Shown here one piece after another: positions 55,690-58,648 of a stretch of 64,000 bases of DNA. The first letter of the stretch is position 1. Each line of letters starts with the position of its first letter. The position numbers and the translations under genes were made by a program. A model generated the notes under the pieces. The model was not told the origin of the DNA and did not search any database. It worked only from the letters and a program-made list of their open reading frames with translations. Origin of the DNA: Rhizophagus irregularis (Eukaryota; Glomeromycota; Glomeromycetes; Glomerales; Glomeraceae); assembly GCF_026210795.1 (NCBI RefSeq), contig NC_089455.1, forward strand, positions 310,001 to 374,000, written 5' to 3'.

Positions 55690-56212
55690 AAGTAATAAAT
55701 TTCAGGCGGAATGTAATGTTGCGAAAATTAATAATAATGGTAAGTATGAATCGGAAATATTTTTTTTACCTCAGTTGCTAATCTCCTGAATTTATCCATA
55801 GAAACAAATTAGCTATAGATATTTTTCGTAAACGTGAGAGAGCAAAAAAATAACTTGATGCTGCATTAAATGGCCTAGGATCCGTGTACTCCTTCCCTCA
55901 TTGATAGCATCATACATTCACTCAATTAAAAACATTTTTATAGACGGTAATTGTGGAGAATTTTTGTAGATGTGAAAGAGAATCAAAAATCCTTTGTTGA
56001 TATGATAATACACATGTTAGTCCAAGGAAATCGTTTCATTTTGGGATTCGATATTAGAACGTGAAAAGCGTCACGCTACCGAAGAACATGATTACAAGAC
56101 ACTTGAGCAAGTTCGAAGCAAACATGTCTCAATTGGTGGTGCTGACGTTGCTAGAGCGCAACGAGAAAATGCTCATTCCGAAGAATTAGCTTTCATCTTA
56201 TATAAGCGTTGA
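55690..56212 (+). pseudogene. 3' part of an unrecognised multi-exon gene
   Basis: The last segment (56053-56212, after acceptor GATATTAG) is clean coding sequence: KRHATEEHDYKTLEQVRSKH, VSIGGADVARAQRENAHSEE and LAFILYKR with TGA at 56210-56212. Upstream, LAIDIFRKRERAKK (about 55808) and GNCGEF look like other exon pieces, but a stop follows the first. I cannot build a complete model. The helical, charged tail gives no family. It may be a living gene with exons I misjudge. Confidence 0.4.
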
Positions 56213-56305
56213 TCGATAGCTTATGTATTTGTTATTTTTGTTGAGTTTGTTCTCGTCAAAGGATAAAACGTATTTATTAAATTACCAACTATAATAAAGA
56301 AACAT

Positions 56306-56552
56306 CCACCGCTCCGCCGTCAAGTTGACAGGCGCGGGACACGGTGGCCTACCTTTACGTGCAGAACGTTCACCGTCAGGTTGACAGGCATGAGGTCGTT
56401 CTGTACGTACCTCTACCACATCACCGTCAAGCTGGCAGGCATGAATGTGGTAGGCGACTGCAAAGAGGAGGTCACCGTCAAGTTGACAGGCATGATAATC
56501 TCCCCTTGCACTTCCAGACACAACTTGCCGTCAGGTTGACAGGCGCAAGTTG
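56306..56552. repeat. GC-rich array of five hairpins: shared 16-bp core, unit-specific complementary stems
   Basis: The core CCGTCARGTTGACAGG (itself an imperfect palindrome) occurs at 56317, 56373, 56424 (as CCGTCAAGCTGGCAGG), 56475 and 56528, with spacing 56, 51, 51 and 53 bp. Each core is flanked by inverted arms whose sequence differs between units: CCACCG/CGGTGG (56306-56311, 56342-56347, plus CCGC/GCGG inside); ACGTGCAGAACG/CGTTCTGTACGT (56357-56368, 56397-56408); CTACCACAT/ATGTGGTAG (56413-56421, 56445-56453); TGCAAAGAGGAG/CTCCCCTTGCA (56459-56470, 56500-56510, imperfect); CAACTTG/CAAGTTG (56521-56527, 56546-56552). In the middle three, CA precedes and CATGA follows the core. GC content is far above the surroundings. 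Open frames cross it on both strands, but the repeats are not all in one frame, so DNA or RNA structure rather than protein seems to be conserved. Confidence 0.93.
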
Positions 56553-56555
56553 CGT

Positions 56556-58648
56556 GGGCAAAATACAAGTTCGTCCCAGCATCGCCATAAAAAATTCACG
56601 ACCACGTGATCATAGTCGGTGTGTGAAATCCTATTTGATATAACTAAATGAATAGTATTTATTTTTATATATTACTATAAAGTCCTCTATTTTTTGCTAT
56701 AATTCTGATAAAGGCTTACTTTTAAAGGATACTTACTTTTGGAACTTTATGGTAATTCAATTTGCATTTTTAATTTGTATTATTTAATATTAAAATATTG
56801 CATTATTTTAGAAATTTTCATTAAAAATTTTTTCATTAAAAATAATATAATTTGAATTAACAGATAGATTTTAGCAGAATTTTATATATTTTTTTATGAA
56901 AAGTATTTTATATAAAAATATAAACTCAAATTTAAAACTACTATTAGTAATATTTTTGTATTGTTAGTACCTTAACAGGTTTTTCTGTAAGTATGGTTAT
57001 TAAAATTACAATAATTTATATTAACAAAAGAATATTAAATTACCAATTATTCAATATTATGTGAAATATGAAAGTAAATTGTTACACCGAACACTCCAAG
57101 TCATGCTTTACAATACTGTAAATATAAATTTTATTATAAAGAATGTATCTATTTATATGACTTTTCAATTTTTGAGATAACATGGTAATTAGTCATTATT
57201 GTATCGATTGGTTATTGAGAAGTTTCAGTGAAAAAGTACGTGTCCATTATACTTGATTTTAAATTTAGTAATTTCCGTGCGAATTCCAATGATATTAAAT
57301 AATAAATATTTATTATTTTATTTTTATCTGAAAAAAAAAAATTATAATTCCGAAGTTGTATAGTTGATATGATTACGTAAATCATTTATCATTTTTTATT
57401 TAGCCCCAGATAAAATAAAAAAAGAAAATTTCAAAAATGTATGATTACAATTTTATAAAAATAAGAATTCTGAATAAAATACCTAAATTGTCTTGCTACT
57501 TAAATTGGACACATTGGTCAAATTTGATAAGATGGATCATTTGAGCCAAATGTATTTGACGATGGCAAGATAACTAATACTACTAATACTAAAATGTTAA
57601 TATTCATAAAAGTTTGAACAACTTTTATTTAGTAAAAACCTGTTAGAAACAAAAATAAAACTGATTAACCAATTAAAGATTTCAAGTGTTCTCATAAATT
57701 TTTGTAACAAAATTCGGGGTAGAAATTTTTTTAAGTCGTATGACTCGTTTGAAACATATAAAACATATTGTTTGTTTATTTTTATTATGTTTCACACATA
57801 ATGTTTGTACCAACTTAAATTAATTATTAATTTTTAATAATTTGTTTTTAAAAAAAATATTTAAAATAGACCAACATATTTTTATAATAAACATAATTTT
57901 TTTGACTATTCTTTTTACAGAATTTTATTACCTTAAAAAGTTTTATTGAAATACGCCTCAAATGATCATATTGTTATTATACTTTTTTTGTAAAATTCTT
58001 TTAAATGTTTGGAACAAACATATGGCATCTCTTTACCTTAGTTTGTTAAAACGCGAAAAAGGAAATATCACGATTTGATCTGCATATTATATCACGGGAC
58101 TCGGATAAACTGAAAAGATTCTTACATTTATTTTAAAATAAAAGTTAATAAATAAATGCTGAAGATTTATTAATTATATGAAATATGCTAAGAACTAAAT
58201 ACAAAAATATAAATATTCGGTGAAATAAAATCATATAAAATAATTTAATATTATAGAATAATTTTAGCATCCATCAATCCACCAATCCACAAATAGGATT
58301 CATATGCATACAATAGCAATTTGCGTAACATTGATTGATATTTGGAAGTTTTTATTTTATTAGATTTTTAGATTTGATACAAGATTCTTTTCTTGTTAAA
58401 ATGAATTATATTAATTGTTATGCGCAATATTCTGTGTAATATTACATATACTAGATCAATGCGCATTTCTTTGTCGGGTGTCCCTTGATTTAATGATAAA
58501 AAAAATTACTATTGTTCAGCAGATATTTGTTACATATTTTTTTTCCACCCGTTTTATCATAGAAAAAAATTTATATATAAATGCTATATTTTATTTCTTC
58601 ATGGTTTAAAAAATTATTTAATCCATTCCCCCTTTTTAAATAATACCA
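56556..58648. other. Gene-free AT-rich stretch
   Basis: No reading frame with a recognisable domain and no named repeat. The last 100 bases include TATATAAATG (about 58573), a possible TATA box for the MATA-HMG gene. Confidence 0.45.

Follow-up and report, generated by a model that had tools for sequence, protein, structure and literature searches.

A tandem array of hairpins with a constant bulged core and unit-specific pairing arms in Rhizophagus irregularis

Introduction

Integron attC arrays consist of tandem imperfect palindromes that matter through their structure and take their polarity from unpaired bases; their outer boxes are conserved, their centre is variable and cassettes lie between the sites. 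CRISPR arrays are built from short palindromic repeats at regular spacing with unique DNA between them, and the spacers are unpaired around the repeat. Iron-responsive elements and MS2-type hairpins are protein-bound, with the bulge and loop fixed and the stems free. The repetitive hairpin-forming elements (RHE) and double hairpin elements (DHE) of mitochondrial DNA in sponges and fungi are short hairpins, at times in tandem, that are potential control or recombination elements, and the sponge mitochondrial elements have conserved stems and variable loops (PMC2800124). About two-thirds of the transposable elements of Rhizophagus irregularis are reported to be unclassified (PMC11075540), so an undescribed repeat in this fungus is unsurprising in itself.

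Here we describe a tandem array of five hairpins in a 64-kb stretch of R. irregularis DNA (C27:310001-374000; the window), positions in which are counted from its first base. Like attC sites, its units are tandem and imperfectly palindromic, but attC keeps the outside and varies the centre, whereas this array keeps the centre and varies the outside; we found neither cassettes nor conserved outer boxes nor a variable centre, and units 51–56 bp apart leave no cassette room. Like CRISPR, it repeats a short palindrome at regular intervals, the copies being separated by unique DNA, but CRISPR spacers do not pair with themselves around the repeat, whereas here the unique DNA does (of 120 arm assignments the true one ranks first), and the host is a fungus. 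The likeness to CRISPR and attC arrays that had been pointed out in the initial annotation found no support beyond appearance. With iron-responsive and MS2-type hairpins the array shares a constant bulged core and paired arms that are free in sequence; it differs in having no Rfam match. Neither the window nor L007-L009 had a match at the gathering thresholds of Rfam 15, and a permissive search of 56200-56700 gave two matches (best E 0.52), both off the hairpins.

The arrangement is the opposite of that in sponge RHE, in which stems are conserved and loops vary (PMC2800124): the core stays constant and each unit has outer stems of its own. Nor is the locus placed like mitochondrial RHE, since its contig is 3.46 Mb long, in a genome of 147 Mb, and such arrays occupy four places among the best candidates scored, without being dispersed. 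A mitochondrial origin was also considered; by term search, the main text of a Rhizophagus mtDNA paper makes no mention of hairpins or palindromes (PMC3630166). In literature searches that covered few subscription papers, we recognised no description of an array of this kind from the nuclear genome of a fungus.

Array anatomy and position

The five cores, each of 18 nt (CCGTCARGYTGRCAGGCR), stand in tandem at 56317-56545, with starts at 56317, 56373, 56424, 56475 and 56528 and hence core-to-core spacings of 56, 51, 51 and 53 bp, in agreement with the initial annotation of five copies at 51–56-bp spacing. Matches to the core with at most three mismatches number five in the whole window, against 0.08 expected. 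The core can form two stems, CC/GG and GTC/GAC, an inner A-T pair and a small loop; a bulged A that separates both stems stays unpaired, as does, 3′ of them, a bulged CR directly ahead of the arms. Because the bulged CR is likewise constant, the core is better given as 18 nt, 2 nt longer than first described. The core variant CTGGC in unit 3 stays wobble-compatible, with a T-G pair kept, as had been noted. Over 260 bp at the array the GC content is 55.8%, against a window mean of 28.1% and a maximum of 50.0% in the rest of the window, bearing out the description of a GC-rich island; published R. irregularis assemblies, of 146.8–161.9 Mb and 33 scaffolds, have 27.89% GC (PMC10640383).

All five units are given on the plus strand. 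Unit 1 (56306-56347) has its left arm at 56306-56316, core at 56317-56334 and right arm at 56335-56347, the arms being interrupted by a small internal loop. In unit 2 (56357-56408) the left arm (56357-56372) and right arm (56391-56408) form 12 outer pairs, including one G-T, around the core at 56373-56390. Nine perfect outer pairs join the arms of unit 3 (56413-56453; left arm 56413-56423, core 56424-56441, right arm 56442-56453). Unit 4 (56459-56510; left arm 56459-56474, core 56475-56492, right arm 56493-56510) is homologous to the A units of the related arrays on C5, C23 and C18, and unit 5 (56519-56556; left arm 56519-56527, core 56528-56545, right arm 56546-56556), with seven pairs, is the probable homologue of their B units. 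By eye, the outer pairing takes in 0–3 additional nucleotides on the 3′ side. The arms of units 2, 3 and 5 are as originally described. The further claim that arms differ completely stood in that they are unit-specific; it did not stand in full, as units 2–4 have an innermost TCA/TGA in common and the arms of units 1 and 4 are interrupted.

Tandem Repeats Finder did not return the hairpin array. An inverted-repeat finder reported no pair at 56000-56900 and so missed the hairpin arms too, probably because these are short and interrupted. Upstream, a high-copy repeat ends at 55863-55918, about 390 bp before the array, and recurs in at least 39 other genomic places at 86–95% identity (best 40 of 100 candidates scored). 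No tRNA genes were found in the window. A 63-aa frame upstream of the array had no Pfam match and one weak relative, and the 15-unit model described below found no array in the stretch around that relative.

Arm pairing in the window array

We compared the true assignment of left to right arms with all re-assignments, taking 18 nt per side with the constant core between them. The true assignment ranked 1 of 120 by hairpin fold energy and by duplex energy, confirming the within-unit pairing that had been reported from inspection. When arms were shuffled 1000 times per unit, 26, 0, 15, 68 and 13 shuffles folded as well for units 1 to 5, unit 4 being the only one above 5% by fold energy; in a second run the counts were 20, 1, 11, 22 and 11 of 500. 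By duplex energy the corresponding p values (1000 shuffles each) were 0.045, 0.000, 0.016, 0.008 and 0.030.

The three core-adjacent pairs are formed, ungapped, in 15 of 15 cells, a result matched by none of 100000 random draws, and for every one of them at least one unit has both partners changed. Taken alone, these inner pairs are served equally well by 6 of the 120 arm assignments because TCA/TGA is common to units 2–4. Together, these results support the conclusion that pairing, not arm sequence, is conserved within the window array, and the earlier proposal that structure is kept rather than sequence holds there.

Core-like sites and control hairpins

The host genome was searched over 146,748,485 bases in 32 contigs, with only the best candidates scored. 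Within that scope, the core patterns turned up isolated sites besides the window array and a few of its relatives, and no dispersed core copies with paired flanks, contrary to the suggestion of a palindromic mobile mini-element. Ten isolated core-like sites (7 of 15 rows of one core search and 3 of 9 rows of another) were compared with 500 shuffles each: 17 shuffles did as well as a site on C20, and 83–498 as well as the other nine. The expectation that genomic core copies would have pairing flanks was therefore borne out by the five window copies and failed for nine of the ten isolated near-matches.

Other candidates were discarded. Three of the 15 matches in one core search were an unrelated 8-bp satellite on C24, which mimics the core at L001 1074-1225 with units ACGTCCTG/TCATCCTG; the same C24 locus carries, at L001 1787-2010, a 66-nt inverted repeat that is 97% complementary, with 92 nt between its arms. 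A two-core pattern matched two stretches in viral contigs and seven in genome contigs, all of which were unrelated repeats or coding-looking DNA by eye. With the array as query, a plasmid match of 32 bases (E 2e-3) fell at 56594-56625, outside the hairpins, and a phage match covered 20 bases (E 4); both were unconvincing.

Chance cores in viral contigs served as one control. They occurred in 37 stretches, 20 of them with distinct flanks (some near-duplicates); arm energy was 1.5 SD better than shuffles in 0 of 20, and all three inner pairs were present in 1 of 20. The core pattern of the C5 type had no match in viral contigs. As another control we took GC-containing hairpin nuclei from 20 sources (the window and 19 genome loci), finding 54 and setting aside two that lay in related arrays. 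Paired flanks at p 0.05 were seen at 3 of 52 control nuclei (mean z -0.08), against five of five array units by duplex energy (Fisher p 1.3e-5) or four of five by fold energy; the control nuclei are perfect 5–7-bp stems and the array cores are bulged, so this comparison is not like with like. Within these limits, neither this core nor the hairpins of the sampled sequence have paired flanks as a general habit.

Related arrays

BLASTN with the window array led to C5:5386287-5386351, and BLASTN with the C5 array led to C23:1167436-1167633 and C18:748188-748485. The best candidates scored thus held four arrays including that of the window, the three relatives having ten units and all lying on duplicated DNA; because the genome searches score best candidates only, diverged further arrays may exist. 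A regular expression picked out 15 units (five in the window, three on C5, three on C23 and four on C18), and a model built from these recovered the same 15 at 29–45 bits in 21 sources, together with a 16th on C18 (L009 3248-3269) at 16.8 bits, in which, by eye, 11 nt of the core hairpin appear to have been deleted between GTC repeats. All 15 units have the bulged A and the bulged CR, a constancy that is partly by construction because the unit-picking regular expression demanded the bulges. The C5-type loop is 1 nt shorter than the window loop.

Units 4 and 5 follow each other in the same order as A and B in the arrays on C5, C23 and C18, and unit 5 is probably homologous to the B units, judged by eye from this order and a shared CACTTCCAG linker. 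Units 1–3 as query found no relative beyond the window array among the best candidates scored. After each B unit a second hairpin (CCTGCCAGGAGGCAGG and variants) is present, at L009 3109-3122 and 3223-3238 and as variants on C5 and C23; it has the length of the 16-nt core, and the two C18 copies, when tested, were without paired flanks.

C5 and C23 have about 3.7 kb in common at 92% identity, helicase included, C18 carrying a shorter block; a gapped block of about 0.9 kb that bears the array is common to all three. The C5 array adjoins a truncated helicase copy (AAA_12, E 7e-32), which breaks off where a C20 paralogue, a 1180-aa open frame, goes on differently. Paralogues of this helicase also cluster at ten places at about 2.45-2.82 Mb on C26. 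Beside the three related arrays lies a repeat family (L007 4518-4780 and relatives) with 113 matches, self included, to a 739-base query; it often forms short tandem arrays and by eye has GGTAAGT-like exon ends on the minus strand. No hairpin array was found in 13 loci, 12 of this family and one, on C13, of a neighbouring segment.

Arm pairing was much less evident in the relatives. Of 500 shuffles, as many as 240, 188 and 369 were as good as the arms of the C5 units, 260, 84 and 59 for C23, and 232, 77, 8 and 71 for C18, so that 1 of 10 units passed 5%. The innermost two pairs are kept in all ten units, and the third is absent from the four B units. Folding around the relatives, as initially proposed, hence upheld the pairing for these innermost positions and not for whole arms, which were not significant at 5% in 9 of 10. 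Plus-strand RNA folds gave z scores of -0.42 for C5 and -1.08 for C18, both no better than shuffles, against -3.68 for the window array. C5 and C23 are 94.3% identical in the array and 94.3% in the flank; compared with C18 their arrays are 91.0 and 92.9% identical and their flanks 85.2 and 85.8%, although this flank is of low complexity and hard to align. The arrays on C5, C23 and C18 are apparently decayed, which argues against a general function of the family and not against function at the window locus.

Covariation and folding

In the alignment of all 15 units, the named structure is paired in 87.3% of 150 cells, compared with 79.9% in shuffles (0 of 500 reach the observed value) and with 16.7–40.0% when the structure is slid along the alignment. 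Four of the ten pairs are changed on both sides (2.3 in shuffles; 11 of 500 reach four), and covariation is 0.290 against 0.143 (0 of 500); all these shuffle figures overstate the evidence, because the aligned units are related paralogues and also supplied the structure. Pairing is thus kept through two-sided changes across the 15 paralogous units, as in a structured RNA. The prediction that arms covary more than shuffles succeeded by this covariation score and fell short in the count of further pair types, one covariation measure out of five, which was 10 against 9.5 in shuffles (274 of 500 reach it).

The RNA fold of the window array has z -3.68 on the plus and -3.11 on the minus strand, and on neither strand did any of 200 shuffles do as well. 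With DNA parameters z is -3.75; DNA folds as well as RNA, which makes RNA indistinguishable here from single-stranded DNA. G-U pairs over the five units number eight on the plus and eight on the minus strand, with no strand bias. The minimum fold of the plus strand contains five hairpins, and a predicted helix, in which 56347-56352 pairs with 56554-56559, would close units 2–5 into a multibranch structure at pair probabilities of 0.74–0.82. In the plus-strand ensemble the core hairpin has a probability of 0.73–0.88 in units 1, 3 and 4, of 0.47–0.48 in unit 2 and of 0.15–0.26 in unit 5; the cores of units 2 and 5 are paired in the minimum fold otherwise than in the proposed core hairpin. The outer arms of unit 2 nevertheless pair with probabilities of 0.98–1.0 in the plus RNA fold, and the arms of unit 5 are still paired in the ensemble despite its improbable core hairpin.

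Discussion

The anatomy of the array is real and unusual. The explanation we prefer, tentatively and at somewhat less than an even chance, is a tandemly duplicated array of hairpins of the protein-binding type that act as RNA and whose stems are kept by compensatory change. The structured hairpins would have been lined up by tandem duplication and would most likely function as RNA, the constant bulged core of each unit being a putative protein-recognition site. Arms that need just double-strandedness would drift by compensatory change and so become unit-specific. The locus would then be transcribed, from one strand or the other, a protein would bind the core, and arm pairing would be maintained by selection rather than by mutation. 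A fuller picture, which as a model we consider on the unlikely side, would be a low-copy nuclear RNA of a new type in an AM fungus, with five tandem bulged recognition hairpins in a multibranch fold, its stems rewritten by compensatory change and its core held constant by a protein.

Paired arms could also arise without function, a possible though doubtful account, if the core palindrome folded back during replication and one flank were copied onto the other by template switching. Each tandem copy would then gain its own complementary arms, and the hairpins would be products of mutation, subject to later decay of which C5, C23 and C18 would be examples. Template switching has been proposed to create and repair hairpin stems in single events (PMC8794818), and it would account for unit-specific arms, unequal arm lengths and decayed relatives without selection; by eye, unit 5 and unit B look closer to each other in their right arms than in their left arms, which would fit a rewriting of one arm. 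Such a process is not a general tendency in the sampled sequence of this genome, however, given the scarcity of complementary flanks at other hairpin nuclei (3 of 52 at p 0.05), although those are perfect stems, unlike the cores. Moreover, the match of unit 4 to the C5 A unit covers both arms (56459-56517), from which it follows that these arms predate the split of the arrays. Transposon ends can carry repeated binding sites, and the cores could be sub-terminal protein-binding sites of this kind in a mobile-element remnant, the blocks on C5, C23 and C18 being moved copies. The gapped block of about 0.9 kb with its array on three contigs, and its junction on C5 with a helicase copy that stops where the C20 paralogues continue, fit such a remnant, which we still regard as improbable. 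BLASTN of the window against the three loci matched, near the array, within 56459-56517 only; no copy of the 3′ flank of the window array was found, and the 5′ flank yielded just the separate repeat that ends about 390 bp upstream. Terminal repeats or a target-site duplication were not noticed by eye at the block edges, and the inverted-repeat finder, which reported no pair at 56000-56900, is one that also missed the hairpin arms. The roughly 3.7 kb common to C5 and C23, helicase included, suggests segmental duplication instead, and binding sites have no need of paired arms.

A decayed protein-coding repeat whose codons are palindromic by chance is a highly improbable source of the array, for all that open frames cross it (90 and 104 aa on the plus strand, 82 and 60 aa on the minus). 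Units 2, 3 and 4 share one frame, and by eye the two peculiar changes of unit 3 would be synonymous in one minus-strand frame; but units 1 and 5 fall into different frames owing to their spacings of 56 and 53, and the 1-nt shorter C5-type loop shifts the frame again. A coding repeat in one frame, named at the outset as what would overturn the structural reading, is therefore broken at both ends by the spacings 56, 51, 51 and 53, and the non-coding-RNA reading survives, no single frame running through all units. Pfam gave nothing above cut-off in four frames (best E 0.26), tblastn with two of the four frames against plasmids and one against phages gave nothing convincing, and a protein-level search of the host genome with one frame found the window alone. 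Coding would also leave the paired arms unexplained.

A constant centre within stems that differ yet pair suggests maintenance of a folded shape, now or in the past. If the stems are selected, the array would amount to five parallel experiments in compensatory evolution at one locus, and, in a fungus difficult to manipulate, it would point to a protein that binds RNA or hairpins. If template switching built them, it would offer a clean natural case of unit-specific palindromes formed round a fixed nucleus.
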